A DNA stretch of 64,000 nt, taken from the NCBI RefSeq assembly GCF_025502585.1, contig NZ_CP106679.1, positions 2,139,501 to 2,203,500 of the forward strand. The letters are read 5' to 3'. Position 1 is the stretch's first letter; every line of letters begins with the position of its first letter. The DNA comes from Reichenbachiella agarivorans. GTDB lineage: Bacteria > Bacteroidota > Bacteroidia > Cytophagales > Cyclobacteriaceae. A model generated the notes under the pieces. That model had not been told where the DNA came from, ran no database searches, and saw nothing but the letters and a program-made list of their open reading frames with translations. Both the position numbers and the translations under genes were made by a program. Positions 1 through 29,643 of this stretch are shown here, one piece after another.

Positions 1-1670
1 GTTATACTTTTGTGACCTTCCCATACGGTCGTATTTCTAAGAAAAGCCCAGAGGTAACAGCTACAGAGATGGGTGAGTATCTTCAGACGCATCTTGATGC
101 TGTGAGTGGGTTCAATGTTGTGAAAGGCTTTCTGAATATAGAAATTGCAGAACAGACTTGGGTGACATATCTCAATGAATTGTTGCAGAATCCTGATTTT
201 GGTCTGGGAACCAAAAAGAACGAATCTGTGATGGTGGAGTACTCATCGCCCAACACCAACAAACCGCTCCATTTAGGACATCTCCGAAACAACTTTTTGG
301 GTTATTCGGTAGCCAAAATCTATGAAGCGCTGGGTTATGATGTGATCAAAGTGCAGATCATCAATGACCGAGGCATTCACATCTGCAAGTCCATGGTAGC
401 TTGGCAGAAATTTGGTCATGGTGAGACCCCAGAAACATCAGGATTGAAGGGGGACAAACTTGTGGGCAAATATTATGTAGAGTTTGATAAGGCCTACAAA
501 GCAGAAATGGTGACCCTCATGGAAGAGGGAAAAACCAAAGAAGAAGCAGAAAAGCAAGCTCCGATCATGCTCCAAGCGCAAAATATGCTGCGTCAGTGGG
601 AAGCCAAAGATCCAGAAGTCTATGCTCTATGGCAAACCATGAACGGCTGGGTGTACGATGGTTTTGAGAAGACTTACCAACAAATGGGAGTGGAGTTTGA
701 CAAGCTGTACTACGAGTCAGATACCTACCTGTTGGGCAAGGATGAAGTAGAGTTGGGATTGAAAAACGGTCACTTCTTCGAAAAGGAGGATAGTTCGGTT
801 TGGATAGACCTGACTGAGGAAGGTCTGGATCAAAAAATCGTGCGACGCAGTGATGGTACTGCGGTCTACATGACACAGGACATCGGTACTGCCATCCAAA
901 GATTCAAAGAGTTTCCTTCTCTCCAAAAATTGATTTACACAGTCGGTAATGAACAAGATTACCATTTCAAGGTCTTGTTTTTGATCCTAAAAAAATTGGG
1001 ATACGAGTGGGCGGACGGATGTTTCCATTTGTCATACGGGATGGTGGATTTGCCATCTGGCAAAATGAAGTCTCGCGAAGGGACGGTAGTGGATGCAGAT
1101 GACTTGATGGATGAGATGATACAGACTGCCGAGGATCACACCAGAGAACTAGGCAAGATCGATGGATTCACCGCTGAGGAAGCCCAAGCATTGTATCACA
1201 CCTTAGGCATGGGTGCTTTGAAGTATTTTCTGCTCAAAGTGGATCCAAAGAAACGTATGCTTTTCGATCCCAAAGAATCCATCGAGTTTCAAGGCAATAC
1301 TGGGCCATTCGTCCAATACACTCATGCGAGGATTTCGGCGATCCTACGCAGAGCTGAGGAATTGAAAATCCTAATGGGACAGGTCACTACAGGTGTCACT
1401 TTGACCTCCAATGAGACAGAATTGATTTATCTGCTGTCTGAGTATCAAGCCAAACTCCAACTAGCAGCTGAAGAATACAGTCCTGCTGTGGTCGCTCAGT
1501 ATGTCTATGATCTAGCCAAGGAATACAACAAGTTCTATGCAGACCAACCGATCTTCACGGAGGAAAGTGAAGCGTTGGTCGTGTTGCGTGTCAATCTCTC
1601 TAAGCAAGTCGCTCAGACAATCAAACTAGGAATGTCTCTACTAGGGATAGATGTTCCAGAGAGGATGTAA
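1..1670 (+). CDS. argS: Arginyl-tRNA synthetase, 5' end outside window
   Basis: Class I aminoacyl-tRNA synthetase that charges tRNA-Arg in the cytoplasm. The frame is open to the left edge (first full codon at 3), so the true start lies upstream; the GTG at 12 is internal. The visible protein starts inside the N-terminal additional domain (ISKKSP...GEYL). It then has the HIGH-type signature as HLGHL in the context PNTNKPLHLGHLRNN, the KMSKS-type loop as KMKSREGT near nt 1062, and an anticodon-binding domain ending in GIDVPERM, a normal ArgS C-terminus. About 555 residues are present, so only a short N-terminal piece is missing. The menA start codon follows four bases after the stop, suggesting co-transcription. 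Identification is secure. Confidence 0.96.
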   Translation, partial: YTFVTFPYGRISKKSPEVTATEMGEYLQTHLDAVSGFNVVKGFLNIEIAEQTWVTYLNELLQNPDFGLGTKKNESVMVEYSSPNTNKPLHLGHLRNNFLGYSVAKIYEALGYDVIKVQIINDRGIHICKSMVAWQKFGHGETPETSGLKGDKLVGKYYVEFDKAYKAEMVTLMEEGKTKEEAEKQAPIMLQAQNMLRQWEAKDPEVYALWQTMNGWVYDGFEKTYQQMGVEFDKLYYESDTYLLGKDEVELGLKNGHFFEKEDSSVWIDLTEEGLDQKIVRRSDGTAVYMTQDIGTAIQRFKEFPSLQKLIYTVGNEQDYHFKVLFLILKKLGYEWADGCFHLSYGMVDLPSGKMKSREGTVVDADDLMDEMIQTAEDHTRELGKIDGFTAEEAQALYHTLGMGALKYFLLKVDPKKRMLFDPKESIEFQGNTGPFVQYTHARISAILRRAEELKILMGQVTTGVTLTSNETELIYLLSEYQAKLQLAAEEYSPAVVAQYVYDLAKEYNKFYADQPIFTEESEALVVLRVNLSKQVAQTIKLGMSLLGIDVPERM

Positions 1671-1674
1671 GGTT

Positions 1675-2568
1675 ATGATAAAGGATTGGTTGGCAGCATT
1701 TAGGTTGAGGACTTTGCCTTTGGCACTGTCTAGCATCATTATGGGAGGATTTTTGGCCTATTGGCAACAGCACTTCTCATGGGGTATTTTTGGACTTTCA
1801 GTGCTGACGACAATCTTTCTGCAGGTACTATCCAATCTGGCCAATGACTATGGAGACTCTGTACATGGAGCAGACAGTGCAGAGCGTGAAGGCCCTCAGC
1901 GAGCCGTACAATCTGGAGCTATCTCAGCCGCTGCGATGAAAAAAGCAATGGTATTGTTTGCTGCGCTTTCTTTGTTGTCTGGATTGACCTTACTTTATGT
2001 GGCATTTCCAGATCATCTGCTGTATGTGTTGGTTTTTCTAGGGATCGGGCTCTTGTCTATCTATGCTGCGATCACCTATACATCAGGGAACAATCCATAT
2101 GGTTACTTGGGATTAGGTGACATATCAGTGTTTTTATTCTTTGGGTTGGTTGGTGTGTTGGGATCTTATTTTCTACATACACGGACTTTTGATTGGATCA
2201 ATGTATTACCAGCCGCTGCCTGTGGCCTTTTAGCCACAGGAGTACTCAATGTCAACAACATTCGTGATATAGAGTCCGATAAGAAAGCAGGTAAAAAATC
2301 TATTCCAGTCAGAATCGGTCGTGTCATGGCCGTGAAGTATCATTTGTCTTTATTGATGGTGGCTGTATTATTGTCTTTGATTTTCGTGTTCCTGACCTAC
2401 CAATCACCCAGTCAGTTCCTTTGGCTGCTGATGCTACCTTTGTTGGTAATCAATGTCAAAGCGGTATCTCAAAAAAAGGAGTCAGCCCAACTCGACCCCT
2501 ATCTGAAACAACTGGCAATGAGTACTTTGCTATATGTAGTTTTGTTTGGAGTAGGCCTGCTTTTCTGA
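1675..2568 (+). CDS. menA: 1,4-dihydroxy-2-naphthoate polyprenyltransferase
   Basis: Membrane prenyltransferase of menaquinone synthesis; it attaches the polyprenyl chain to 1,4-dihydroxy-2-naphthoate. UbiA-superfamily signatures are visible: the first Asp-rich motif NLANDYGD and the second NIRDIESDKKAGKKS. About eight or nine hydrophobic segments span the protein. I chose ATG 1675 (MIKDWLAAFRLRTLPL) over the in-frame ATG at 1651, because the latter lies inside argS and adds residues not typical of MenA. The result is 297 aa, the usual family size. It lies four bases behind argS. Menaquinone is the expected respiratory quinone in this phylum. Confidence 0.93.
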   Translation: MIKDWLAAFRLRTLPLALSSIIMGGFLAYWQQHFSWGIFGLSVLTTIFLQVLSNLANDYGDSVHGADSAEREGPQRAVQSGAISAAAMKKAMVLFAALSLLSGLTLLYVAFPDHLLYVLVFLGIGLLSIYAAITYTSGNNPYGYLGLGDISVFLFFGLVGVLGSYFLHTRTFDWINVLPAAACGLLATGVLNVNNIRDIESDKKAGKKSIPVRIGRVMAVKYHLSLLMVAVLLSLIFVFLTYQSPSQFLWLLMLPLLVINVKAVSQKKESAQLDPYLKQLAMSTLLYVVLFGVGLLF

Positions 2569-2767
2569 AAAAAGTATCTCCTTACGAAAAACCAATTTAA
2601 AAGGTTTGCTGTTCGCTAACGTTCATTTTGGGACAGTTTTCTGTTCGGTTTTGATTGAAGTTTGTTTTTGTTTGTTTTGTAACTGATTGATTTTCATATG
2701 GTTGATATTTTGGCACAGCTTTAGCCTACCTATTGGTCAGATGTCAAAAACATAAATACACAAAATC

Positions 2768-3166
2768 ATGAAAAATCTAATCAAGTCAACTACCCTAGTA
2801 TTAGCCGCTGTTCTAATGATCAGTACTAGCATTTTTGCCAATGGAGCCAAAGAAAAAGCTGTAGAAAAAGCAACCGAAACAGTGCAAAGCGCTGCACCAG
2901 ATGATTGGAAGACGTTGGCCGTCCAAGCTGATTATTTGATCAGAAAAAATGCTGGCCTTTCATCCGCCAAACAATGGTTAGACAAATCATTGAACATCAA
3001 AGAAGATAGCTACAATCTAGAAATCATGGGGGACTACTACGTGAAATGCAATTTGCCAAAGGAGGCAGTTGTTTATTACATCAAGAGCATGGAAGCCTTA
3101 AAAGCCAATGATGCCAGCGTAGACACATCTCATATTCAAGATAAAATTGTCTTGGCAATGAATTGA
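2768..3166 (+). CDS. Small secreted protein, TPR-like, unknown function
   Basis: I do not recognise a named family. The 132-aa product starts with a clear signal peptide (MKNLIKST, a hydrophobic run, then cleavage near SIFANGAKE), so it is exported to the periplasm or surface. The mature part is helical, and the stretch from about residue 70 (LNIKEDSYNLEIMGDYYV...AVVYYIKSMEAL) has the spacing of a single TPR-like helix pair. A 199-bp gap without a gene separates it from menA, and a rho-independent terminator follows at 3201. It is therefore probably monocistronic. A role as an envelope stress or scaffold protein would only be a guess. Confidence 0.75.
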   Translation: MKNLIKSTTLVLAAVLMISTSIFANGAKEKAVEKATETVQSAAPDDWKTLAVQADYLIRKNAGLSSAKQWLDKSLNIKEDSYNLEIMGDYYVKCNLPKEAVVYYIKSMEALKANDASVDTSHIQDKIVLAMN

Positions 3167-3200
3167 TAAAGAAAAGTAGAATCCTCATAGAGGAATAGAA

Positions 3201-3228
3201 GGGGCGACTTAGGTTGCCCTTTTTTTTT
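3201..3228 (+). terminator. Rho-independent terminator after the secreted TPR-like gene
   Basis: GGGCGAC and GTTGCCC pair across a 4-base loop (one G-T pair), followed by a run of nine T. It sits 35 bases after the stop at 3166. Confidence 0.8.
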
Positions 3229-3275
3229 GTGCAATTGTTGCGTACTTTTATCCCATATCATCAATCAAACAAGAA

Positions 3276-4148
3276 ATGAAAACCATATTAGTCCCTATTG
3301 ATTTTTCTAAAGTATCGGAATACGCATTTGACTTGGCACTGCAAATGTCAAAAAAGGCGCAAAGTGAAATTATTTTGCTTCACATCGTAGACCATCCATC
3401 CAGTACCACTATGAATACCATGGGTATCGTGGACTTAGATTTGGATCCGATGGAATCAATCTTTATGAAAAAGATGATCGAATTGGCAGAGGGAAAAATG
3501 GCAGCTAAAGTAAGCGAAGCAGAAAGTGCTGGCGCCAATGTAAAGTCAAAAATCAGGATTGGAAATCCATTCTTAGAAATCACACAGCAAATCACAGATA
3601 CAAAATGTGATATACTCGTGATGGGCACTGAGGGTACCGAAGGAATCGGTGAAGAACTCATTGGTTCTAATGCTGAGAGAGTGATCAGAAAAAGCAAAGT
3701 GCCAGTCATCACCCTCAAGGAAAAGTGTGATTTGGGACAACTCAATAAAATTGCAGTAGCTTCTACCTTCGAAGATGTTTCTGGTGAATTCATTAGACAC
3801 CTGATGGCTCTTCAGGAATTCTTGGGTGCTCATTTGTCTTTTGTTAAGGTCAATACACCAAGTGCTTTCCAAACAACAAAATCGTTGAAGAAGCAAATGG
3901 AGCAGTTTGTCAAGGACTACGGATTCAAAAATTGCAGTACAGAAATCTACAATGATACTTCAGAAGAAGATGGAATTGTTTCCTTTGCAGAAGACAATCA
4001 AGTAGACATGATCGCTATGGAGACTCATGGCAGAACGGGTATCATGCACTTGATTTTAGGATCTATTGCGGAAGATGTGGCCAACCACGCCAAAAGACCC
4101 GTATGGACCTTGAATGTAAGAAAAGAAAAAGGTGTCAAAGAAAGCTAA
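3276..4148 (+). CDS. Universal stress protein, two tandem UspA domains
   Basis: Cytoplasmic nucleotide-binding stress protein. Two UspA domains lie in tandem, about residues 1-147 and 155-283. Each ends with the ATP-binding loop pattern G-x2-G-x(n)-G-S: GTEGTEGIGEELIGSNAERV in the first and ETHGRTGIMHLILGSIAEDV in the second. The start (MKTILVPIDFS) is the classical UspA beginning. The tandem form of about 280 aa is common in Bacteroidota. The gene overlaps the next one by 17 bp, so the two are probably co-translated. The ligand and trigger cannot be told from sequence. Confidence 0.92.
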   Translation: MKTILVPIDFSKVSEYAFDLALQMSKKAQSEIILLHIVDHPSSTTMNTMGIVDLDLDPMESIFMKKMIELAEGKMAAKVSEAESAGANVKSKIRIGNPFLEITQQITDTKCDILVMGTEGTEGIGEELIGSNAERVIRKSKVPVITLKEKCDLGQLNKIAVASTFEDVSGEFIRHLMALQEFLGAHLSFVKVNTPSAFQTTKSLKKQMEQFVKDYGFKNCSTEIYNDTSEEDGIVSFAEDNQVDMIAMETHGRTGIMHLILGSIAEDVANHAKRPVWTLNVRKEKGVKES

Positions 4149-6530: not shown

Positions 6531-7682
6531 TCACTCAAGCTTATCAAAAAAGCTTCGAACATATTCCAAAGGGATTTTTTCCTGCTCCAATCGCCAATTG
6601 TTTGTTTTTAACAAGTCATAGAGTTCTCTTTCTTGTTCGTTTAGAAAACTATCAGCTGTTACATATGAAACAGTCCCGGCATCATATTCAAAGAATTTGT
6701 CAAATGTTTCTCTATCCATCAAAATGCTTCGAGTTTGATTAAAATAACTTCTGAACTGAGAAAGAATTTCAAATCCCTGTGCGTCTATATCACCCCAATA
6801 GAGTAGTTCTATATCTGAGAGCCACTTCGCATTTTTAAGATTATTGATACTATATCCACTTCCAAAAATTGCGATGGTCTTTGTCATTTTTGGAAGAGTC
6901 AGGGTTGTGTAGAGCGTCGTTTTATTTTCAACAACCAGAACGCGCTTTATAGGTAAGTTTAGTGATTCGAACTGACCAACAGGAATCGCAATATCATTGA
7001 GTCCCTGAAAGTAACTCTTGCTTATTTCCTGATCAAGAATTTTGAACCTTACTTGAGGTTCACTGTACTTTAAATTGAACCTCTTTTCAAATTGCTTTTC
7101 TTCTTTGTTGACATTATCCGAGATGATTAGATCGAGGAGTTCTTTTAATATTCCTTGATTCTGCTCTATGAACTTGGTGTGGACTTTAATTGGTAATTCT
7201 CTCAGATAAAGTCTTGGGATCGGGTTCTTTAGGAAGTATTGGCAGACTTTTATCAAATCTTCCCACTTATCTTCATTAGCTATAATTTTTGAAGGATATT
7301 GTATAATCCATTCTTTTAACTCAGGAAGTTCATCGATTATTTTTCGAATGTTCTGTTCAAAAACTTTCACTTCCTTTTCCTTGTTTAAGTATTTCAAAAA
7401 GTCTATTTCAGTATCGAAATAAATGGCGGTTGGTAGGTCTTGGGTGCCTAAGTACTTTGTCTTTACCTTCTGAAAATCTAAGGAGTAACCATACCCGTTC
7501 TTATCCTTAGATTGACTTAAAATTGATCGAATTTCTCTTTCAAATTCTTGTAATGAAGATTTGGTGTAGCTTTTATCTCCAGTTATTACGATCCTGTCAA
7601 AAGTTTCATTTCTAACCAATGTCTGTAAAAAGGAAGTATACTTTCTCAGAGATTTGGCCCTAATCTGCTCGGGGGTAATCAT
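6531..7682 (-). CDS. jetD: Wadjet nuclease subunit JetD
   Basis: Nuclease subunit of Wadjet, the SMC-like system that detects and cuts closed circular plasmid DNA. The 383-aa protein has an N-terminal DUF3322-type region (QIRAKSLRKYTSFLQ...) and a C-terminal DUF2220 Toprim-like domain. Candidate metal-binding residues are visible: the glutamate in RVLVVENKTT and the acidic motif in LLYWGDIDAQGFEIL. The C-terminus LEYVRSFF is typical of the family. It is the last gene of the operon, and its ATG overlaps the jetC stop by four bases (ATGA, 7679-7682). No strong hairpin terminator is visible downstream. Confidence 0.93.
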   Translation of the reverse strand: MITPEQIRAKSLRKYTSFLQTLVRNETFDRIVITGDKSYTKSSLQEFEREIRSILSQSKDKNGYGYSLDFQKVKTKYLGTQDLPTAIYFDTEIDFLKYLNKEKEVKVFEQNIRKIIDELPELKEWIIQYPSKIIANEDKWEDLIKVCQYFLKNPIPRLYLRELPIKVHTKFIEQNQGILKELLDLIISDNVNKEEKQFEKRFNLKYSEPQVRFKILDQEISKSYFQGLNDIAIPVGQFESLNLPIKRVLVVENKTTLYTTLTLPKMTKTIAIFGSGYSINNLKNAKWLSDIELLYWGDIDAQGFEILSQFRSYFNQTRSILMDRETFDKFFEYDAGTVSYVTADSFLNEQERELYDLLKTNNWRLEQEKIPLEYVRSFFDKLE

Positions 7683-10600
7683 TGTAAAATAAATTTGGCT
7701 TTCTCTTCTTGGAATTGCTCTATTGGCATGTCATAGAGCCATGAATATTTCTCTTCCTTTCTTTCAACAAAGTGAACAAACGAAATGTCATTTTCTACGA
7801 TGTGGATATTGTCACTTGGGGTCACTACCAATAATTGAAGGTGAAGTTGCTTACAGAGTGTGATCAGATATCTAGCCTTATCTTCATCTTGAGCTTTGAA
7901 AGCTTCATCAATGGCTATAAATCGGAAAGAGTTGCTTTGAAGACCTTCTTTAGTTAGGCCGAATTGATAAGCTATTGCAGAGCCTAAAATCGTATAAGTG
8001 AGCTGTGCTTTTTCACCTCCTGATAATTGCCCCATGTTTTCATATGTCTTAAACTTTTGATCTGTTTCTTTATAGAATTCTTCAGCTTTATAGCTAAACC
8101 AGGATCGAACTTCCATTACTTTGGAACGCCATTCGGTATTGTCCAATTTCTTAATTAAAGGTTCGATGTTTTTATAAAAGTGGTTTTTACGACCATCAAT
8201 TGATGCATTAACCTCTCTTATGTTAGGTATTGCAGCGTTGAGTAAATCCCTGAATTCCTTTACCTCATCGTTGATCTTATTGGGAGCAACAATTTGAATG
8301 TAGGTTTTGAAATCTCTGTCCCTGAAATCAATCTCATGAAGAGATTCATTTAACAAACGAATGTTATCTTTTATGGAGTCTGACCAATTTTCGAAAAACA
8401 TCCTAAAATCACCCACTTTATTGGTTATCGTTTCCTGTAAATATTCATTGAATTTCTTTTCAAACTTCGGGAGATTGTCCTCTGTCAACCTTTTTAAGAA
8501 ATCTTGATATTCACTTATCAATTCCAGATGCATGGATTCTGGAAGACGGCTAACATCTGAGCGCCAGTCTTTAAACTTATTTGTTATTTCTTCATTAGGT
8601 TGCTTAAATGCATTGATTTTAAGTTTTACTTCATCTTCATTTTTTCTTCTGTCTGTCTCAAGGGTTGATACTTCCCTTGATATTTCCTGTTGGAAATTGC
8701 TCTCTGTCCTTTTGATACCTTGAAAATCTACCTCAGATAAATTGGGATATTTCAGTTCAAATGATTTAGTATCACGTTCTCCCAAAGGATCAATGAGAAA
8801 GCGACTTTTTTCAAGACCTTCTCTAATCAGCTTTATATTGGCTTCCTGATTGTATATTTCTCTATTCTTGCTGTCAATTTCAACGTTGGTCAGATTCGTC
8901 AATCGATCCTGCACTTCCGTCAATTGCTTCTGAAGCTCTTTTACTCTATTATTCGTCTTCTCCAAAGTGCTTTTTTGACTTTCCTTATCCTGAATTTCTA
9001 GAGCAAAGTTTTCCCAGTCAATGTCGTCATACTTCGTGTATACCTTAAAGAGTTCTGAAAATGCTTCTCTCTTGCTGTCTATATCCTTTATGTTTTGCTC
9101 AATCGAACGGACTTTCTTTGTGGCAGACTGTTCATCCTCTTGTAATTTTCGAGCCTCGTTTTTCAGTAAACTTATTTTCTCTTTATTGTCCCACCCTAAC
9201 ACATAGTTTTCTTTTCTGGTGACATGAGGACGATCGTCTTTCTCATGTTTTCCTTTGCCAAACTTTATCAATCCCTCCTTTGTGATTGCTTTCTCATTAT
9301 AGAGCACAAAGTCCTTCAAATCCTTCACACATGAGTAGTTATAGTTTTTGGTTAATACATCTTCTAACCACTCACTGTATATGTTCTTTGGTTTAAATTC
9401 AACCTTATTTAGTAGCGAGTTTTGAGGTGGAAGTTCACTTCTCATGCTTGCCAAAGAGGTGTATTTCTGATATCTCTGATAAATTATCCTACCTCGAAGG
9501 TTGGTCTGGTTCACGTACTCGTTCACCTTGGCATAATACCTTTCGGGAACAATTAAGCGCAAGGCGAAATTGTGAAGGATTTTCTCAATTGAGGATTCCC
9601 ATGAGGTTTCTTCATCTTTGACCTTGATCAATTCTCCGATAAAGGGAATCTCTTCTTTAGTTGCACCTACATGTTCTAAAATATCATCTCTGATTTCAGA
9701 AACCCTCGTTGGTATGTTATTCTTGTTTTTCTGAAGAGATTTAATTGTTTCAACCCTATTCTCTATTTCACTTTTAATACGATCAAGCTCGTTTTTTGTG
9801 AGTCGAAGGGCTTCATCCTTGTCCGATCTTGCTACTTCAAGATCAGCTCTCTTTTGTTTTGAGTACTCTCGATTGGTTTGAAAGGTTTCTTCTCCTGGGT
9901 TTATGCTCAACTCAAGGCTTTGAGCAAGTTTGTTATAATCATTAAGCTTCGATTTTCTTAAATCACGACTCTTTTCGAGTTGCTTAATTTCCTTTTCTAA
10001 TTCCTTAATTTTTCCTCCAACTTCATCTCTTTCAATAGAAAGAGATATAGACCTCTCTTCTTGTTTAAGAGAGTCTTCTTTGAATTTTAGCTCTTTGAGC
10101 TCTTCATTCAGCTCGGAGAGTTTTTCTTCACAAGTCTGTAATTCTTTTTCTGACAGTTCAATATTCTTCTTGGCAAACCAATAGACAGCAACTTCTTTGT
10201 CAAGGTTTAATCTTGTTAATTCAACTTGTATACGTTCCAATTCAATAGTGATCTGATTAATTGGGGTTAGTTGAGAAATTTGTTCTTTGGCCTTTTCAAT
10301 GTTTGTTTTAGCATCCATCAAAGTCAGGAAGCTCTCTTTGAGTTGAATGAATTCTGTTTCTGGATCTAGCTTTTCTAGCATGTTTGTCCTGATAAACTCA
10401 TCCAAGTCCTCTAAAACTTTCACTCCAACAATATGATTGAAGAGACTCAACGCATTGACTGATCGCATCCCAAACAGATTCCAGATTCTTTCAGCATATG
10501 ATGTTGGTCCATCTAAGAATTCAACTTTGCGTTTGCTGCTATTTGAATTGTAAGTTTTATCGAGTCGCTTTTTCCATACCCCTTTTGAATCGAACTGGTT

Positions 10601-11083
10601 AAAGTCGTTTTCAATTTCTAGTGCAATATGAGCGATTCCAAAATTTCTTTTTAGCTCTCCATTGGAAAACCACCTAACCTGAAATAAGGTGATTTTCTTT
10701 TGATCTGTGTTTGAAAAACTTGCTAAAATGACCGAATAAGTGCCTTTGTCTCTTAAAGATTGTGTGGATGTTGAATATTCGCCTTCTCTTTGGATGCTAC
10801 CATAGTTTCCTAGCACATAGGTTTCTTCAGTTCTGTCACCTTTTTTCTCAACTCCTGAAGACTGATTATAAAACCTGTCCTTTTTGGTAGGAACCATCAA
10901 GGTGAGAAGCGCATCTATAAAGGTGCTTTTTCCTGAGGCATTTGCACCTGTGAGCAGCGAATTATTTCCTTGGGGTTGGATTCTAAAAACACGATCATTG
11001 TAAAATGTTCCCCAGTTAAAAACCTCCATGTATTGAAGTCTATAACCAGCTTTGTCCGAACTGGTGCTAAACAGACTCCACAT
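7679..11083 (-). CDS. jetC: Wadjet SMC-like ATPase JetC
   Basis: MukB-like motor ATPase of Wadjet, which dimerises and extrudes DNA loops. At 1134 aa it has the SMC plan. An N-terminal ATPase half carries Walker A (GANASGKSTFIDALL, residues ~46-60). Two long coiled-coil arms (about residues 240-460 and 640-760) flank a hinge region. The C-terminal ATPase half carries the ABC signature QLSGGEKAQLTYT and Walker B FRFIAIDEAFKAQDEDKA. The start ATG 11083 lies 17 bp inside jetB, and the stop overlaps jetD. All catalytic motifs are intact. Together with JetA and JetB it should form a MukBEF-like complex. Confidence 0.95.
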   Translation of the reverse strand: MWSLFSTSSDKAGYRLQYMEVFNWGTFYNDRVFRIQPQGNNSLLTGANASGKSTFIDALLTLMVPTKKDRFYNQSSGVEKKGDRTEETYVLGNYGSIQREGEYSTSTQSLRDKGTYSVILASFSNTDQKKITLFQVRWFSNGELKRNFGIAHIALEIENDFNQFDSKGVWKKRLDKTYNSNSSKRKVEFLDGPTSYAERIWNLFGMRSVNALSLFNHIVGVKVLEDLDEFIRTNMLEKLDPETEFIQLKESFLTLMDAKTNIEKAKEQISQLTPINQITIELERIQVELTRLNLDKEVAVYWFAKKNIELSEKELQTCEEKLSELNEELKELKFKEDSLKQEERSISLSIERDEVGGKIKELEKEIKQLEKSRDLRKSKLNDYNKLAQSLELSINPGEETFQTNREYSKQKRADLEVARSDKDEALRLTKNELDRIKSEIENRVETIKSLQKNKNNIPTRVSEIRDDILEHVGATKEEIPFIGELIKVKDEETSWESSIEKILHNFALRLIVPERYYAKVNEYVNQTNLRGRIIYQRYQKYTSLASMRSELPPQNSLLNKVEFKPKNIYSEWLEDVLTKNYNYSCVKDLKDFVLYNEKAITKEGLIKFGKGKHEKDDRPHVTRKENYVLGWDNKEKISLLKNEARKLQEDEQSATKKVRSIEQNIKDIDSKREAFSELFKVYTKYDDIDWENFALEIQDKESQKSTLEKTNNRVKELQKQLTEVQDRLTNLTNVEIDSKNREIYNQEANIKLIREGLEKSRFLIDPLGERDTKSFELKYPNLSEVDFQGIKRTESNFQQEISREVSTLETDRRKNEDEVKLKINAFKQPNEEITNKFKDWRSDVSRLPESMHLELISEYQDFLKRLTEDNLPKFEKKFNEYLQETITNKVGDFRMFFENWSDSIKDNIRLLNESLHEIDFRDRDFKTYIQIVAPNKINDEVKEFRDLLNAAIPNIREVNASIDGRKNHFYKNIEPLIKKLDNTEWRSKVMEVRSWFSYKAEEFYKETDQKFKTYENMGQLSGGEKAQLTYTILGSAIAYQFGLTKEGLQSNSFRFIAIDEAFKAQDEDKARYLITLCKQLHLQLLVVTPSDNIHIVENDISFVHFVERKEEKYSWLYDMPIEQFQEEKAKFILQ

Positions 11084-11651
11084 AATCTTGTAATTTATTT
11101 TTGAAATCCTGAAGGATATCCAGTGTTACTTTCTCTTTGATTATTCGATGTATTTGATATCTAGTTTCATTTTCCTTTTTGCTCACTTCTTTCAGGTATC
11201 CGAGTTCAACAATTCTTTTAATATAGCCGTCTAACTCTTTGATGAACTTGACTCGATTAAAGGTTTCAGGCAAGAACATTTCAATTTCATCTTTAATCTC
11301 AGAATCAGCAATGAATTTTTCACCACCCTGAAATTGTGCTGGGTTGCTGTCAAATTCTTCCAAACTCTGTCTTAGGACAATTAAAACTAATGAGGTCTCA
11401 AAGCCTATCTGTCGTCTTACTATTAATCCCAAAGTATTGCCATCTTCATCCTCCAGTTGTCTGACAAACGCAAACCCCTCGTCCTTTTTCACGATTAGTT
11501 CCAAACCTATTTGAGCGAGGTAATCTTGAATTTCTTCTTGATAATTATTGGCGATGTTTTCCCATTCTGGTGAGTTTCTTTCTACTATGCCTTTAAGCAA
11601 CTTTACTATTGCCTTGGAATACGGTTTTGTTTGTTGTTCTAGTGTCCTCAT
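11067..11651 (-). CDS. jetB: Wadjet subunit JetB (DUF4194, MukE-like)
   Basis: Winged-helix (KITE-type) accessory subunit that bridges the kleisin JetA and the ATPase JetC. The 194-aa product matches the DUF4194 pattern: an N-terminal helical part (YSKAIVKLLKGIV), a central LGLIVRRQIGFETSLVLIVLR segment interrupted by ordinary residues, and a C-terminal part with FNRVKFIKELDGYIKRIVEL and YQIHRIIKEKV. It overlaps jetA by four bases (ATGA, 11648-11651) and jetC by 17 bp, which implies translational coupling. Assignment rests on both sequence pattern and position. Confidence 0.92.
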   Translation of the reverse strand: MRTLEQQTKPYSKAIVKLLKGIVERNSPEWENIANNYQEEIQDYLAQIGLELIVKKDEGFAFVRQLEDEDGNTLGLIVRRQIGFETSLVLIVLRQSLEEFDSNPAQFQGGEKFIADSEIKDEIEMFLPETFNRVKFIKELDGYIKRIVELGYLKEVSKKENETRYQIHRIIKEKVTLDILQDFKNKLQDYVESV

Positions 11652-13108
11652 TTGGTAATAATGATTTCAGGTATTTGGATCGATTTTTTGAGTTCACTAT
11701 TAAAGTTTATGCTCTGTACTCGATTTGAATTGATAGTGTACTTGAATTCTTTTGCAATACTGATGTATCCAAAAAGTTCGGGAAGCCCTTTTTCTATTCC
11801 TCCGGAATGATCTATCACTTCCTGAATTGTTGTTTGATTTTTAACTTTCAGTATTTCAAGTACTCGCTTCCGAAGTAACTCCTTGTCAATTGAGGATTGT
11901 AAAAAGAGTTTATTTAAATAACTGGATTGAGTTATGTCCTCAGACGCCAAGGTTGGCCTGCCATTATACACTTGTTCCTCCGTTTGCTCCAAGGTGATTT
12001 TTCTCTCGAAAGGGATATTGATGTCAAAATCAGTCTCAAGTTCAAATGAAATGTCAGGACGTTGTTTTGTTTTACTTATTTCAATTAAGGATTTCTTTAT
12101 TTCGAGAATTGTGTTCTTTGTAGCTTCTGATTTTGAAGCTTCACTTTCCCTTATTATTCTGCTTAGTTTTTCAGCCATTTTATCATTGGCTTTATAAACT
12201 TTTTGCCCCGAATTATGGAGATGCCTTTTCATTCCCTTCAGAAAAAGATCGTTGGTTTCAATTCCTTTTTCTTCTAATGTTACGAACAACTCTTTTGTTA
12301 GGATTTCCCATTGGTGCTGTAAATCAGGATTTAATAGGAAAGACCAGAAGGCATAAAAACTTTTTCCCTGTTGACTTTCTTTAAGCTCATCAAGTGCTTC
12401 GAAGGTAAATTCAAGAATATCACTCTTAGTAAGGCTTCCATCTGTGTGTTTTTGATAGATAACTTTGGTAATCTCTTTGAAATTATCTTCAACTTCCTTG
12501 AAGTCAGAAAGCAATTCCTTGGCAGATTGATTGAGTTGATTGAAGCGAGGCACGATTTCGAATTCCTCAAACACTTTGACATCATCTCCAATTTTGATTC
12601 TCTGAATTTGTTGCTCTATTTCTAGCTTTTTGTCTTCTAATAATTGAATTCGTTTTTCAGCATCATCACTAGAAAATTCTACAAGTTCTTGAAGCTGACT
12701 AAAGATATTTTTGAATTTAGATTCTGTTCCAACATATTCTTCCTTCTTTAGGCTGGTGAGCCAGTCAATGGTTTTACTGGAATGTGAAGAAAGTTCATAA
12801 AAGATATCTCCTCTTTCATCTTGATAATTTGTAAGAAACCCCTTGTTTGTCCAATGCTGTATAAACTTCTTTGCTTTAATTTCATAGGTATCAATAACCT
12901 CTACTTCATTTTCTTCATCGTTTTCAATTAGCCTGAATTCTAGGTAATCAGCGAGTTGAGCATGAATTACTTCAGAGGATATTGTGGTTTTCTGGTTTGA
13001 GAAGGTGTTAATCAAAAAAATAATAATCGCATCTCTATTTCGAAGCTTGAGAAGTTCAACACTCGGGGAGTTGTTTAATATGTCTGATATTTTGGAACTG
13101 TCAATCAT
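11648..13108 (-). CDS. jetA: Wadjet kleisin subunit JetA (DUF3375)
   Basis: MukF-like kleisin subunit of Wadjet. The 486-aa protein starts with a winged-helix-like region (LRNRDAIIIFLINTF...), has a helical, partly coiled-coil middle (residues ~150-330) with the DUF3375 hallmark GKSFYAFWSFLL, and ends in a second small domain. DUF3375 with DUF4194, an SbcC/MukB-like ATPase and DUF2220 defines type I Wadjet. The start ATG at 13108 overlaps the stop of the upstream HNH endonuclease gene by four bases, so expression is coupled to that gene rather than to a promoter of its own. Confidence 0.92.
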   Translation of the reverse strand: MIDSSKISDILNNSPSVELLKLRNRDAIIIFLINTFSNQKTTISSEVIHAQLADYLEFRLIENDEENEVEVIDTYEIKAKKFIQHWTNKGFLTNYQDERGDIFYELSSHSSKTIDWLTSLKKEEYVGTESKFKNIFSQLQELVEFSSDDAEKRIQLLEDKKLEIEQQIQRIKIGDDVKVFEEFEIVPRFNQLNQSAKELLSDFKEVEDNFKEITKVIYQKHTDGSLTKSDILEFTFEALDELKESQQGKSFYAFWSFLLNPDLQHQWEILTKELFVTLEEKGIETNDLFLKGMKRHLHNSGQKVYKANDKMAEKLSRIIRESEASKSEATKNTILEIKKSLIEISKTKQRPDISFELETDFDINIPFERKITLEQTEEQVYNGRPTLASEDITQSSYLNKLFLQSSIDKELLRKRVLEILKVKNQTTIQEVIDHSGGIEKGLPELFGYISIAKEFKYTINSNRVQSINFNSELKKSIQIPEIIITK

Positions 13109-14118
13109 TGTTTAAAAACATTTACTCCATGCCACTCCAAATTCTCCCTGCTCGGCCAGTAACTGGCTTGATTGGGTAATACAATCTTATGTCCACTGTA
13201 CTGTCGGATGGAATATGAATCTTCCTCTATAAAACCATCAGATACACAAACTACATAATCAGGATTGATGGAAATTAATCCCTTATCAAAAGCCCGGTGA
13301 AGGTTCGGACAAAGAGCAATGCCATTGGATACTGTATCGTCATAGCTTTCGCTGAAAGGGACGATATGGCAGGCATCAATCATGGAAATATTGTAAGCAG
13401 TATCGATCTTCATTCCTGAAATCCAGCACCGGTTCCCGTATATTCGGGGGATTTCGCGTTTGAACAAACTGCCGCGTAGAAAAATCTCTTCGTCCGCTTT
13501 TTGATCAATCAGTCGTCTAGTTGCCGTGCGATACTCACCAGGAGGCTCATTGACGATATTGTCCTTCGCATCTGTTAGCAGTTGATCTGCACCTGAAGTT
13601 CCTCCCGAAATTTTTCCTTTTGTGTCTGGAAAATACTCATCCAACAAAAAATGCAAGAGAATCTGGCTCGACTGATGATCTATGAGCAGGGCATAAAGAT
13701 CTGGTTCAATCTCGGCATATTCCACCGCTGAATTGAGAGAGGAAAAGCTCTTTACCAACGAGCCCATTTTTTTCAGATCACTAAACCCCGATCTGGGCAC
13801 AAGCCTCCAAAACCCCTCACTTTTCATGTAGAAAAACGGATAAGACATGCGACAATCATGGTTGGTGATGACGAGTTCGCTCCAATTGGATTTGAAAAGA
13901 GCGACAAGTTCAGGTGTGATATAAATACGGTTATCGGTGATCTGGCCCCCTTGATATGACTGAATGATCGAAATCAGTAGGATGGGCTTGTGCGGAGCAA
14001 TTCCATGAGAGCGGTCTACTCGAAGTTTTTTGAATTTTATAAGATACTTTGATAAAACCTCATCCATTGAAGTGAATCTCGTTATATGAGCTTTAGTGTC
14101 ATTATGAAAACCTCCCAT
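13105..14118 (-). CDS. HNH endonuclease, probable sulfur-binding (SBD)-HNH type IV enzyme
   Basis: The C-terminal ~130 residues form an HNH nuclease domain: NRCWISGMK, DACHIVPF (first His) and NGIALCPNLHRAFDKGLI. The N-terminal ~170 residues contain GIAPHKPILLISII, SYPFFYM and GFWRLV. This pattern resembles the DNA sulfur-binding domain of ScoMcrA/SprMcrA-type restriction enzymes, which cut phosphorothioate-modified DNA; the Tyr-Pro pair would fit the sulfur pocket. That reading is inferred from memory of the family. Start: ATG 14118, with ATG 14067 (MDEVLSKYL) as an alternative. The stop overlaps jetA by four bases, so it is the first gene of the Wadjet operon. Other reading: a methyl-dependent or generic HNH restriction protein (COG3440-like). 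Confidence 0.8.
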   Translation of the reverse strand: MGGFHNDTKAHITRFTSMDEVLSKYLIKFKKLRVDRSHGIAPHKPILLISIIQSYQGGQITDNRIYITPELVALFKSNWSELVITNHDCRMSYPFFYMKSEGFWRLVPRSGFSDLKKMGSLVKSFSSLNSAVEYAEIEPDLYALLIDHQSSQILLHFLLDEYFPDTKGKISGGTSGADQLLTDAKDNIVNEPPGEYRTATRRLIDQKADEEIFLRGSLFKREIPRIYGNRCWISGMKIDTAYNISMIDACHIVPFSESYDDTVSNGIALCPNLHRAFDKGLISINPDYVVCVSDGFIEEDSYSIRQYSGHKIVLPNQASYWPSRENLEWHGVNVFKQ

Positions 14119-14412
14119 TCTCTTTATTTTTGGAAGGTCAGTAATATTTATTAATTCTCAATAAAGCTGCTTCTCTAAGATATATAATAAGCATTTAAAG
14201 AGGGAAACTTTGAATCCTTATTTAAGTAAGTTTAAATGGAGCTTAATTATTAGATGTTTGTTTATCGTGATTGATGACTTCTGATCAAAAGAAGAAAAGA
14301 TAATTCCTAAGAAACTTCAAATCAAGCTTGTCAAATCATATCTTGTATAGGCAAAGACCAAAGGCATTTCTTTTGGTCTGAATGAAGAAATTAACAGGAA
14401 GATCTACCTCTC
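14119..14412. other. Divergent intergenic region between the defence operon and glgB
   Basis: These 294 bases are AT-rich and hold no ORF. They must carry the promoters of the minus-strand HNH-Wadjet operon and of plus-strand glgB. I see no exact TAnnTTTG box or convincing hairpin. Confidence 0.6.
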
Positions 14413-21719: not shown

Positions 21720-24700
21720 TTAATTTTCGACAAGTACCAATTTTAGATCAGCACTGATCCTTTGGCGTATGAAGTCCTTGTTCCTACTCACAAACCAGTG
21801 ATCACCGTGCACCAACTCCTGCTTAAATTCTGCAGTCGTATGTTCTTGCCATGGAGTCATTTCTTCTGGCAAAGTAACCTCATCCTCAATCGCTGAGAAT
21901 ACGGTGATAGGGCAATTGAACTTGTCTGCCTCGACAAAGTCATAGTTGATCAAAAGAGCCATGTCTAATCTCATGATAGGGAGGATTTTTTTGACATACT
22001 CTATGTCATCTATGTAGGTCATCAAGCCCAGAAGCTTCTGCTCAGAATTGGAAGAGATGGTAGTTTGTGCCATTACATCCAGATTCTTCCAAGTATGAGT
22101 CATCTGTGGAGCCATCGTTGCAGAACTAAAGAAGCGTATGGGCTCCTTGCCATGCTTTGCACGTAAAATTCGGGTGAGTTCGAAGGCGACTATGCCACCA
22201 AAACTATGACCAAAAAAGGCAAATGGACCATCCAGAAGTGGTAGAATGGATTGTTCTAAATCCTCTAGGAGGTCTTCTATATGAGAGAAGAACCCTTCTT
22301 TTTTCCTGTTTTCTCTACCAGGCATCTGTACTGCATATACATCAGTTCCTAACGGCGCATCGTACATAAAGTCATTGAACATAGAAGCTCCTGCTCCCAT
22401 CGAGTGAAACATGAATAGTTTTATGTTATTACTTGGATAACCCTCTTCATTTTTCTTATGTACAAACCACTTGTTGATTACTTCTATATCTTCTTCTGTA
22501 GAGATACCCGATTCATCGTTGGCGACACCTGTCTCTGTACCCGTGCTGCGTAGGCTGTCGATGATGTGATTGGACATTTCGACGATACTAGGTCCTTTGG
22601 ATATTTTCATCAGTGGGTAATTGAATTCCAATTTTTGGAGCATCCAATTTCTCAATTGATTCATCATCAGGGAATCAAGACCAATGGCTGAAATAGATTT
22701 GTTTTCATCCAGTTTGTCAGGAACAGTACCTAAAATTCTGGCTAATGCTTCTTTCAAATTGATTGTCAATATACCGAGAGCTTCACCATTGGAAGTAATG
22801 ATTTGATCTCTCAAACTATCACTACTACTTTTTGCTGAGCTGACCTTTAGGTTTTCATCAGAAAGCAGATGGTTGAGCTTAGCATCGTTTTTGAGATGAT
22901 AGAAGAATTCTCTGAATTTCAGCCAGTCAATATTGGCGGTCATTCTGACTGCTGCTCCTTCGAGTAGCATGGTTTCTACTTTGCTCGTCACCTGATGCAG
23001 GGTCAGAGGATTCCAACCTTGGTTTTCGAGTACATTTAGTAGGTTGCCTGCATCTTTTGACATACCCGCAAAATTCCCTAGTACACCTAGATTTACGCTT
23101 TGTGCATTCAAACCTTTTGACCTCCTATAGATGGCTAGCTTGTCCAAAAAGTTGTTGGCAGAGGAATAATTTGACTGACCTGGGAATCCAACTACTGCAG
23201 AAATGGACGATAGTGTCAGGAAAAAATCTAGATCAAGTGATTCGGTCGCTAGGTGTAGATTCCAAGCACCAATGGCTTTGGGAATAAACACTTTCTTGAA
23301 CAAATCTTTGTCCATTCCTTGTATGGTAGAATCGTCTATGATTCCAGCACTATGAACCAGTCCACCGATTGGCAAAGTGCTATTTACACGGCTGATCATT
23401 TCTTGTACTTGATCACGGTGTGATAGGTCAAGCTTTTCGATTGAGATATTCACACCCTCCTCTTGTAGCTTGCTAATCCAGTTTTTGTCATAATCAGTTT
23501 TTGCACCACTACGGCTCACCATGACGAGATTTTTTGCACCTCGATTGGCTAGGAATTTGGCCATTTCAAGTCCAAATCCACTTGCTCCTCCAGTGACCAC
23601 ATAGGAGAGATCAGGAGACAGCGAGAGTCTTGTCATGGGCAACGCATGCACAGTCGTATCCTCCATTGACAATACCACTTTGCCCACATGAGTACTTTCA
23701 GTTTTTAGTTCGATGGCTTCTTTGATTTTACCGATCTTAAAGGTCTGAAATGAACCGACAGACAAAGACTGGATAGCAAATAGCTGTGTGACTTTCTGAA
23801 ACAATCGTGCAGCCTTTTGAGGCTTTTGTTTCATTAGCTTTTCGATATTGATAGTGGTATAGCTCAGGTTTTTGCCAGATCTTTTGATGCTTAGACTGGT
23901 TTCATCAGAGACATCCGTACTGCCGATATCGATAAAGCGACCAAAATCTCGAAGACATTTGATACTCTGTACGATAGATTTGCCATTCAGCGAGTTCAGA
24001 ACCAAATCGACCCCCCCTCCGTCGGAATCTTGCATGACCGTATCATAAAAGGAAGTTGACAGGCTGTCATATACGTTTTTAACACCCATTGTTTGTAACG
24101 TAGCCCTCTTTTGGTCTGAATCAGCAGTTGTATAAATTTCTAGTCCTTTCATTTGAGCCAGTGCAATAGCTGCCAAGCCTACGTCATCAGTAGCTGAATG
24201 AATGAGGACTCGTTCGCCTGCTTCGAGTTGACCTATGGTAAACATACTGTAGTATGCAGTTAGATAATCATAGGAAATGCAAGAGGCTTCTTCAAAGGAC
24301 AAGTGATCAGGCTTGTGAGTTACACAGTGTTGCGGAGCAGTTGCTTTCCCTGCAAATGCCTGGGAAGTAAAACAAATCACTGCGTCACCTACTGAGAATT
24401 TGGTGACATTGTGACCCACACGGGTGATGACTCCACTACATTCGGAACCTAATTGATTTTCTATAGATTCTTGGTCTTGCATGCCTCCATTGATGAGGAA
24501 AATATCTCTTGAGTTGATACCCGCTGCCTTTACATCAATTTCAATCTCTTCTTCTCCCAGTTGTGAAGGTCCTGTTTTTATGAATTTTATAGAATCCAAA
24601 ACACCTTTTTCCTGAAGAATGGTATGGTAATATGAGCCAGAAGCAGCGATGCTTTCTGAAGCAGATTCTTGCGCTTTTTCTTTTTCGACTGAAAGCAAAC

Positions 24701-27700
24701 GTTTGACAAATATCTTTTCACCACGAAATGCAAAATCAGTTTCTTCACCACCATTGGAAGTGGAAGAGATGAACTTCGCTAGATTTGATGCCTCTTTCTC
24801 ATTGTTGAGATCAGCTAGGTCAGCAATTTTGATGGTAGCTAAAGGGTATTCGTTGAACATCACTCTACCTAATCCGAATGAGACAGATTGGAGGATATTG
24901 ATGCTTTGATCCGAATCCACTACCCTATCAGCTTGCTCGTTGATCAACCAAACGGACAGTTGCATTTCTTCTTCTATAATGGCATTGAATATATTGAGGA
25001 CTTTCCAGCTGAGGTCTACCGCTGTGATTTCTATTTCCTGCCGTTTTTCAGAAACTGGTAGGGTGATCACGATTCGGTTGAGAGTAGGGTGGTTGTTTTT
25101 AATCTCCACGATGGCCTCCCGAACCGTATCCCTGTCAGAAAAATCATTGATAGAAGGACGTATGATGGTAGTTCCATTTTCTACTAGTTCCTTCTCTAGT
25201 TTTTCTGCTGAGAAATCGTTTTCTGCAATCATTAACACCTTGTTTTTTGCTGGCTTGAAAGCAAAATCAGGTGCATCTATCCAGTTGTATTCGTAGCAGC
25301 CGCTGTACGCCACATCTTGACTTTGTGTCCTAGACCCTTCGATGTACTTGCAATGTAGCCCTTGGATTTCGGCAATCAATGTTCCGTCTTCGTCTAGAAT
25401 ACAAAAATCACCTTTTAAATACTGCGCACTAGCTTCGGATACCATGACGTAGCTGTACACATCAGACGATTTGGGTTTCGTATGAAATTTGTAGCGGTCT
25501 ATATGAGTAGGTAGATAGATGCCTCGCTCTTCTACATCACTATCTAAATTGGCAGCAAAGATCGTGTGTAGACATGCATCCAAAATACAAGGGTGTAAGT
25601 TGTAATCCTCAATGCCATACTCTAAAGATTCGTGTAGATTCACTTTGGAGAGAATTTCATTGTCAACAACCCAGAGATTCTTGATCGCTTTGAAAGTAGC
25701 ACCGTAGTACAGCCCACTTTTTTTCAGTTCAAGATACATGGGTTGAACAGGCAATCTATCATATATTCTTTCCTTGAGTTGTTCAAGATCAACGGTAGTA
25801 GAATTGAATTTGTCACCAAGGGTGTTCATCTTTCCGTTGGAATGCTTGACCCATTTGGCATTGGGCGTGTTTTTATCTCTACTCAGAACCCAATATTTCT
25901 TTTCCTCAGAATAGACTTCAATTTTCACTTCTGAGAATTCACCTTCCTCTGGCAAGAAAAGAGCACTTTCAAAATTTATATCTTCTAAGAATCCAAAGTC
26001 TTCTCCAAATGCCTGTTGAGCTGCCGCAATAGCCATTTCCAAATGACCAGTAGCAGGGAAGATGATCACATCATCGACTTTGTGATCGTCTATATATGGA
26101 TCTATATGTCTATCCAACAGGAAGTTGAATGTGTAGCCATCTTCATTGGTTCCAGAACTGCTGTAATCCTTTACCAAAGGATGTATTCTTTTGGAAGTTC
26201 TTTGAGATTGGTGTTTAGAACTTTCATACCAGAATGATTTTAGATCCCATTTGTATTTGGGAAGGTCTAAAACATTATTCGCATGAGGGTAAATACTATC
26301 CCAATCCAAGTTGATGCCTTTGGTGTACAAAGAACCTAAAGTCTGCAAAAATCGAATTTTCTCATTTTCCATTCTTTTGATGGATGGAAAGATGGAAGCA
26401 TTGGAATCTTTGTTTGAAAAAACCTCTTCGGCACCTGGCGATAGGGCAGGGTGTGGTCCTATTTCTATGAAAATGTCATAGCCGTCGTTGACCATTTCGC
26501 TTAGAGCATTTGAGAAATAGACAGGTTCACGTACATTGTCGTACCAATACTCACTCACCAAATGTAGTCCATTTTCCATTTTTCCAGTGACCGTCGAATA
26601 GAGGTCAATTTTGGCTTTGCTGGGCTGGAGTTGGGACAGCGAACTTATCAATTCATCCTTCAGTGGCTCCATGTGATGAGAATGGAATGGTACTGTCACT
26701 CTCAAGAACTTATTGAAGATGTCCTTTTTCTCCAACTGTTCTGCTATTTCGATGAGCGGTTCTTCGTCACCAGATAGCACAGCCATTTTTGGGCCATTGA
26801 GTGCCCCGATGGAGACTCTGTCGGTGACATCTTTGATTAATTCTTCTGCTTCTATTTGAGACAGGCTGACTGCCAACATCTTTCCTTTGCCGGTAGCAGC
26901 ATGCTGTCCGCGACTTCTATGAAAAATCACTTGTACTGCCTGTTCCAAGGTTAAGGCACCAGAGGTATATGCAGCGGCTACTTCGCCGATAGAATGACCC
27001 ACAACACCTTGAGGAGTCACGCCATGCTTTTTCCATAGCTCTACAAGGGCAATTTGTATGGACATGATGGCAGGCTGTGCGATTCTGGTATCGTTTACTC
27101 TTGAGTTTTCTTCATCCTTGTTCATTTCTTCCAACAACGACCAACCTGCTATCTCTTTGAAATAGCCTTCTATTTTTTGGATGGTAGATTTGAAAAGGGG
27201 CTCGCTCGCTATCAATTCCTGTCCCATAGCAAACCACTGCGGGCCTTGTCCTGTAAATACAAACCCGACTTTTTTTGCAGGAGTATCCACTTCGTTGATC
27301 ACGACTCCAGATAGGATGTTGCCTTCTAAATAGGCTTCAATTTTGGTAACGATGTCTTGGGCATCAATACCAGCTATGGCAATGCGATGTCTCAGATCTG
27401 ATCTGTGTTTTCCAATGTTATAGCATATGTCTTTCAGCGAATGTGCTGAGGACAGTAGGTAAGCAGCGTACTCTCTTAATAGGTTTTGGAGAGAGGATAT
27501 TGTCTCTGCACTGGTGTGAAAGAGGTACATATTTTGATCATCAATGTCAACTTTCTTAGCTTGTGTGGGCATGATGTATTCTTGTACCACGACATGAGCG
27601 TTTGTTCCGCCGGCACCAAAGGAATTGACACCCCCTATTCTTGGACTGCCGTCTTTTTGTGCTGGCCAATCTGTGTTTTCACTGACAACTTTTAATTTCC

Positions 27701-28874: not shown

Positions 28875-29643
28875 GATAATAATGTTTAAGATGTTAGAAT
28901 TTGTATGAGCACAGCTTTGAGCAACTTCATAGTCGTTGTACATTATTGTATTAACAAAAGTGAATGTGTTTGAAATTTTCCTAGAGCATTTGTTTACTAC
29001 CAGGAATTGTAATCTCCACATCAAGTAATTTGTTATCTAAGCAATACCGTATAACGGTTTAAATGTCAAAGCAGTGCTATATAGTATTAGGGGCTTTCGT
29101 AATCATGTCTTCGGTCGAGAAATGATTTTAATGGATCACATAGCTTAAAGTTTTTTAAATATTCAAATTGAGTTACTATTTATTGTGTTAATGGATCCAG
29201 TTCTTATTAGAGAAATGGAGTGCTCTTACAACATCAGGTTAATTTCATTGTATATAACGGTATTAAATATTAAAAAATCAAGTATTTGGGTATTTATTTT
29301 TTTGATAAAGATCGCTCAAATGATAGATGAATGTAATACCAAGATTTAGGTATATTTGAGGTGAATAGCTAAAAACTCCCATTCTTAGTAGCTATTTTCC
29401 ATTTAAAAGCATCATTTTACATGTAGTGCTACTGTATCTAAGCCTGTATTAATTTGTGAGAAGTTTAGTTTTAATAGCAAACTAGATGCTCAAGTCTATC
29501 AAGAAGTATTTGGGTAGAAATAGTTTTTTATTATCAGAATATTTAATTCTATACGTGATTTAGTAAATTGTCGGAATCACTATATAGCTCCTAACGGTTA
29601 AACTTGTACGTATGCAATTTTTTCAATTTTACTCATAATAAAT
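28875..29643. other. Long AT-rich divergent region between the PKS and the chemoreceptor
   Basis: This 769-bp gap has no credible gene. It holds three AACGGT elements: a full palindrome ACCGTATAACGGT at 29046-29058, and single copies at 29256-29261 and 29593-29598. The last lies 46 bases before the chemoreceptor start. Nothing else stands out apart from very high AT content. Confidence 0.5.

Follow-up and report, generated by a model that had tools for sequence, protein, structure and literature searches.

A predicted phosphorothioate-dependent nuclease gene leads a type I Wadjet operon in Reichenbachiella agarivorans and pairs with Wadjet in two other genomes

In a 64,000-nucleotide stretch of the Reichenbachiella agarivorans genome (hereafter the window), a gene for a protein with an N-terminal sulfur-binding domain (SBD) and a C-terminal HNH domain overlaps the start of a complete type I Wadjet system, jetABCD. 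The same pairing occurs in two other genomes. As a whole explanation, we favor with moderate confidence a phosphorothioate (PT)-dependent nuclease that is expressed together with Wadjet and acts as an additional, chemical barrier. The basis for this is the domains and motifs of the five genes, the recurrence of the pair, the joint absence of the genes at the corresponding site of relatives, and the absence from the host genome of any match to DndC, DndD or SspD. The features are as follows.

13105-14118, minus strand: SBD-HNH gene, 337 aa as listed; likely start at codon 18, position 14067 (320 aa)
13621-14052, minus strand: sulfur-binding domain, N-terminal, approximately codons 23-166, from the SBDHga1 match and the ScoMcrA alignment
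13264-13428, minus strand: HNH domain, C-terminal, HNH_2 (Pfam PF13391) at codons 231-285
13105-13108, minus strand: ATGA junction, a 4 bp overlap of the SBD-HNH stop and the jetA start
11648-13108, minus strand: jetA (kleisin), 486 aa; PF11855 1e-85, PADLOC JetA1 677 bits
11067-11651, minus strand: jetB (KITE), 194 aa; PF13835 4e-33, PADLOC JetB1 211 bits
7679-11083, minus strand: jetC (SMC ATPase), 1134 aa; PADLOC JetC1 1121 bits, motifs GANASGKST, LSGGE and IDEAF
6531-7682, minus strand: jetD (nuclease subunit), 383 aa; PF09983 JetD_C 5e-47, PF11795 8e-37, PADLOC JetD1 503 bits
6310-14333, no strand assigned: ftsY-glgB segment of about 8 kb missing from three same-genus genomes; edges approximate

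The sequence-only reading of this DNA had described five minus-strand genes overlapping by 4 bp (HNH/jetA), 4 bp (jetA/jetB), 17 bp (jetB/jetC) and 4 bp (jetC/jetD), and on recomputation the coordinates, strand and overlaps all hold. Its claim of a complete type I Wadjet system is confirmed by PADLOC, whose type I models match all four subunits in the order JetA-B-C-D, and by Pfam, which finds DUF3375 in JetA, DUF4194 in JetB, SbcC_Walker_B and AAA_29 in JetC, and JetD_C and DUF3322 in JetD. We take the three motifs in the JetC translation to be those of an SMC ATPase, and we predict from these matches that jetABCD would restrict small circular DNA as a type I Wadjet. Most homologues in a 16-protein alignment start near the equivalent of codon 18 of the first gene, whose start may lie at 14067 instead of 14118, with no effect on the junctions; codon numbers are counted from 14118. 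The window also holds a minus-strand ORF of 2434 aa at 21720-29024.

A genome scan with 16 SBD-HNH proteins returned 379 relatives, and the best 80 of these 379 were used for context counts. Two of the 80 lead jetABCD, one in Aquiflexum lacus (L103, the same locus as G001/L035) and one in the Bacteroidia MAG MS011 (L118), giving three genomes with the window. An HNH gene overlapping jetA in a second genome had been set beforehand as a check, and L118 provides it: the overlaps are again 4, 4, 17 and 4 bp, jetA starts with GTG, and the SBD-HNH/jetA junction reads GTGA where the window has ATGA. In A. lacus a gap of 6 bp separates SBD-HNH from jetA. Identity to the window is 48% (HNH), 71% (JetA), 73% (JetB), 63% (JetC) and 65% (JetD) for L118, and 54%, 35%, 40%, 41% and 43%, respectively, for L035. 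Recurrence in two other genomes rules out chance adjacency of SBD-HNH and jetABCD. In L118, SBD-HNH is itself preceded at 83 bp, on its own strand, by a PLD-SF2-DUF3427 helicase gene (709-3855), and that operon may be six genes long.

The pairing is nevertheless rare. JetA was detected in 18/395 genomes of a class sample, 57/395 of a phylum sample (with the window JetA as query) and 21/390 of a family sample. We fetched 55 JetA loci from non-carriers (17 class, 20 phylum, 18 family); four of them (L054, L062, L063 and L192) have less than 400 bp upstream, and the remaining 51, with at least 1.1 kb upstream, were testable. For the phylum sample, 26 of the 56 JetA matches other than the window were inspected (20 fetched, 6 from the class sample). 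By profile, SBD-HNH was found at 0/55 of the fetched loci and 0/51 of the testable ones, ruling it out as a common part of Wadjet. Within the family sample it occurs at two of 20 testable JetA genomes, the window being one, and it is missing from loci L151 and L152 even though their JetA is 72% identical to that of the window. SBD-HNH is therefore an uncommon addition to Wadjet. Other genes lead jetA elsewhere: a type III restriction-modification pair with a gap of 41 bp (L066, 9281-14143), a 1431 aa WD40/Mrr_cat protein gene 8 bp before jetA (L164, 5889-10184), and a gene for a 1353 aa protein that overlaps jetA from upstream (L193). Different kinds of gene may be able to take the leading position before Wadjet.

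Between ftsY and glgB, the five genes appear to have been inserted together. In three genomes of the same genus (G068, G124 and G175) ftsY adjoins glgB, with no jetA, jetC, jetD or HNH match between them; in a fourth, G154, glgB is on the other side of ftsY. JetA is absent from all seven other same-genus genomes of the family sample. When the window is compared with G068, similarity ends near 6306 and returns near 14334. Loss of all five genes in the relatives is the less likely account of this pattern. The GC content of the HNH gene is 42.4% in the window, against 34.1-36.3% for the jet genes; the values are 29.5% and 35.8-42.6% in L103, whereas in L118 the HNH and jet genes have similar GC (29.1% against 29.7-32.4%). 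We count the unlike composition in the window and L103 toward a mosaic origin of the operon. The sequence-only reading had held that the HNH gene is more than a neighbor of Wadjet, a view strengthened by the recurrence in L103 and L118 and by the joint absence of the five genes in three same-genus genomes.

Quick trees of SBD-HNH (82 rows) and JetA (40 rows, with long-branch and composition warnings) bear on whether the pair formed once. The SBD-HNH tree puts the window, L103 and L118 in three separate places, with L118 inside a 99-supported set of six that includes neither of the other two. In the JetA tree, the window and L118 both fall in a set of seven that has full support, but not as sister branches, and L103 is placed outside it. 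By AU tests, a sister relationship of the window and L118 is rejected with both the HNH data (p 2.7e-47) and the JetA data (p 4e-6), and the HNH data also reject a grouping of all three (p 1.7e-4). The scatter of the three carrier labels is no greater than for shuffled labels. Joint inheritance of a single SBD-HNH/Wadjet pair is disfavored by the AU tests and by the conflict between the trees. Because both trees part the window from L118 and also disagree with each other, they favor separate joinings of SBD-HNH and jetABCD in the three genomes; formally, they leave room for one gain followed by losses and gene swaps.

In a different account, SBD-HNH would be a type IV enzyme that works on its own and came to lie before Wadjet in a defense setting, the two sharing expression only and leaving each other's targets unaffected. 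Consistent with this, close relatives of the window JetA lack SBD-HNH. In addition, among the best 80 of the 379 relatives, 76 loci have a downstream ORF and just 20 of the 76 are tightly coupled to it, where tight means a same-strand distance of -60 to +12 bp, a limit chosen once the gaps had been looked at, with ORFs called mechanically. However, SBD-HNH stands directly before jetA in three genomes, twice with the same 4 bp overlap, the gene lineages concerned are not sister groups, and all five genes are missing together in relatives. We regard this account as possible but on balance unlikely.

The sequence-only reading had seen in SBD-HNH an N-terminus resembling the ScoMcrA-type SBD and a C-terminal HNH domain, and both observations stand. 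Pfam HNH_2 (PF13391) scores 48.4 bits against a cut-off of 21, and H251, N265 and H274, presumably the HNH residues, are invariant in 16/16 aligned proteins. The best solved relative is SBDHga1 (phmmer 4e-12, profile 4e-22). An AlphaFold2 model built from 34 aligned sequences has a mean pLDDT of 90.6, and its top PDB match by Foldseek is the Hga SBD with PT-DNA (8h0l; TM 0.87 by target length, rmsd 2.0, 142 columns), with 24-25% identity between the SBD and the solved SBDHga. Weaker matches to VcaM4I, TagI, SprMcrA and ScoMcrA follow; superposed as whole chains, VcaM4I and ScoMcrA fit the model poorly (rmsd about 18 and 23). NCBIfam NF045808 (PT-DNA_restrict, 'phosphorothioated DNA-binding restriction endonuclease') matches at 5e-29 and 101.3 bits; this is under its 180-bit cut-off, which places the protein outside that named family, with the architecture common to both.

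According to the accessible text of PMC6224610, the sulfur pocket of ScoMcrA is formed by H116, R117, Y164, P165 and A168, position 117 is Lys in most homologues, and A168 is tolerant. By profile alignment, these positions map to H43, K44, Y93, P94 and Y97 of SBD-HNH, so that four of five are retained or conservatively replaced and the fifth (A168) is Y97; the ScoMcrA alignment is weak alone (domain E 0.51), and the mapping leans on the KPxLL and YPF anchors. Across the 16-protein alignment K44 and P94 never vary, H43 is almost invariant, and Tyr occurs at position 93 in 4/16. The KPxxLL, PF and W pattern agrees with the motif that the accessible part of PMC7461809 gives for active PT-dependent enzymes. 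As the SBD fold and the pocket residues are kept, we predict that the protein reads PT, and judging from sequence and model it is probably PT-dependent.

Alternatively, the target of SBD-HNH could be a different mark, for example a modified base, or foreign DNA that carries no modification. The available portion of PMC10853773 treats the SBD of Dnd-linked enzymes as a wHTH domain and holds that these proteins may also sense marks besides PT. The neighbors of one relative in genome G088 also point this way: at L031 (5525-9221), a protein 67% identical to the window protein is followed by a thymidylate-synthase-like gene, a gene for a 275 aa protein and aGPT-PPlase/ADDT genes. These neighbors resemble thymine hypermodification, and some SBD-HNH members may read another mark. 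Against this reading, the top match among solved structures is an SBD in complex with PT-DNA, the pocket positions are kept, and incomplete dnd genes often lie beside relatives. For the window protein, we find a non-PT target doubtful.

The distribution of PT-modification genes was surveyed with DndC, DndD and SspD. The window genome has no match to DndC (E 1e-5), DndD (E 1e-10) or SspD (E 1e-3), the last being an unspecific model that also matches in 7/14 control genomes, and the L118 genome, a possibly incomplete MAG, has no match to any of the three. A. lacus has DndC and no DndD match, and its weak SspD match is the same DndC gene. In 13 of the best 80 of 379 loci, SBD-HNH comes directly after a DndC gene or part of one, and a C-terminal piece of DndD follows SBD-HNH at L120 (8644-11560), L121 (8644-11560) and L139 (9030-11671). 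In these three loci and in L110, L111 and L113, SBD-HNH appears to sit within wrecked dnd operons, behind a full or shortened dndC. In G048, where both DndC and DndD score above their cut-offs, the SBD-HNH gene is interrupted and near a contig end. There are counter-cases: at L119 an open SBD-HNH gene has long ORFs for DndC and DndD beside it on the opposite strand, and a DndD-like ORF of 673 aa is present at L141. The available text of PMC7461809 argues that SBD-HNH nucleases and working PT modification coexist badly, and on the whole the dnd-gene pattern fits a nuclease that tolerates working PT modification badly. Relatives of SBD-HNH also occur on plasmids (12 records, 30-36% identity).

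With these results, we hypothesize that the first gene product would be a PT-dependent type IV restriction endonuclease in which pocket residues H43, K44, Y93 and P94 seat the phosphorothioate sulfur and the HNH domain cuts nearby. It would be made with JetABCD from one operon, presumably as a single transcript with translational coupling. Incoming DNA would then face a chemical check, for PT marks brought from a dnd+ donor, and a topological check, in which loop extrusion detects small circles and JetD cuts them. The host would be spared because it makes no PT, and the two barriers would divide the labor as complements. We found nothing pointing specifically to SBD-HNH degrading linearized products. 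Counted against this explanation were the low SBD identity, the NF045808 score, the poor ScoMcrA alignment, the Tyr at the A168 position, the limited sharing of Tyr 93 among homologues, the rarity of the pair, the gene neighbors at L031, the alike GC in L118 and the formal possibility of a single gain on the trees. The readings that we weigh are not mutually exclusive, and their likelihoods need not sum to one.

SBD-HNH also leads modules other than Wadjet. Thirteen of the 20 tightly coupled ORFs belong to recognizable DNA-motor modules: eight DEAD-UvrD, two JetABCD, one HamAB, one PLD-SF2-DUF3427 and one DndE-AAA. Of the other seven, five encode 77-140 aa, and the remaining two (154 and 360 aa) match nothing in Pfam. 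At L072, L073, L077, L078, L085, L086, L094 and L096, the gene directly after SBD-HNH encodes a DEAD-UvrD double helicase of roughly 1600 aa; the overlap is listed as 4 bp in 6/8, and L078 and L085 run off contig ends. It was typed by Pfam once (L032, the same gene as in L072) and in the other loci by similarity to that gene; we read it as RecQ-like with an exonuclease domain. SBD-HNH and this helicase are possibly an undescribed two-gene defense system. In one of the 80 loci (L089, 8838-13300), SBD-HNH is followed after 6 bp by Hachiman hamA (PF08878 6e-52) and then a helicase.

The A. lacus locus (L035) and its counterpart in G126 (L033) share dndC and SBD-HNH at 85% DNA identity, and the alignment stops at the SBD-HNH stop codon. 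Behind it are jetABCD in L035 and a two-gene PADLOC PDC-M23AB module with a HamB-like helicase in L033. Outer flanks are common and in the same order (77.8% and 74%); the stretches before dndC are unlike, with helicase ORFs (two pieces) in L035 only. The shared head and flanks with different modules suggest that one locus swapped the module behind a constant head. We see SBD-HNH as an interchangeable gene at the head of the operon, not as a subunit that Wadjet had ancestrally.

We also considered SBD-HNH as a general, exchangeable PT-sensing head that steers unrelated motor modules (Wadjet SMC, Hachiman, DEAD-UvrD, PLD-SF2) to sulfur-marked DNA, which we think quite unlikely. If it were true, PT made by one bacterium would act in another as an alarm that loads a motor. 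Also very unlikely in our view is an adaptor role, in which SBD-HNH would attach to the Wadjet complex and bring it to PT-marked DNA or set it going there, PT being the loading signal of the motor: the frequency of motor modules behind tightly coupled SBD-HNH, to which L033 adds its HamB-like pair, and the common head that ends where the modules begin would suit it, but these modules have no common subunit, so a single docking surface is hard to picture, and sharing an operon does not require contact.

The operon is a new combination of known parts. Its first protein shares the two-domain plan, the SBD motif pattern and the HNH domain with the PT-dependent SBD-HNH enzymes EcoWI and Bsp305I, which are rarely near dnd clusters according to the accessible text of PMC7461809; unlike them, it leads a Wadjet operon and scores below the NCBIfam cut-off. 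Its fold and its pocket (H, K or R, Y, P) are like those of the SBDs of Hga (8h0l) and ScoMcrA (5zmm), whereas the SRA-like middle domain of ScoMcrA (described in the available part of PMC6224610) has no match in the window protein. The jet genes agree with type I Wadjet as given in the accessible text of PMC10586767 in number, order, domains and ATPase motifs, and differ in having an extra leading gene. The Hachiman locus L089 has the same kind of leading gene and a different motor module. Among the matches listed in our literature search, which covered a minority of subscription papers, we found no description of an SBD-HNH and Wadjet operon.

Wadjet is a shape-sensing nuclease that cuts circular DNA independent of sequence, as set out in the available portion of PMC10586767. 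A recurring operon with a modification-reading nuclease would mean that chemical and topological checks are stacked in one unit, and it raises the question of whether PT on a plasmid alters the fate of that plasmid under Wadjet. The Aquiflexum and G126 loci offer a natural comparison, with one dndC-SBD-HNH head and two motors, Wadjet and a helicase pair. Since the same pairing occurs in two other genomes, our results suggest that bacteria sometimes add a chemical DNA check to a shape-based one.
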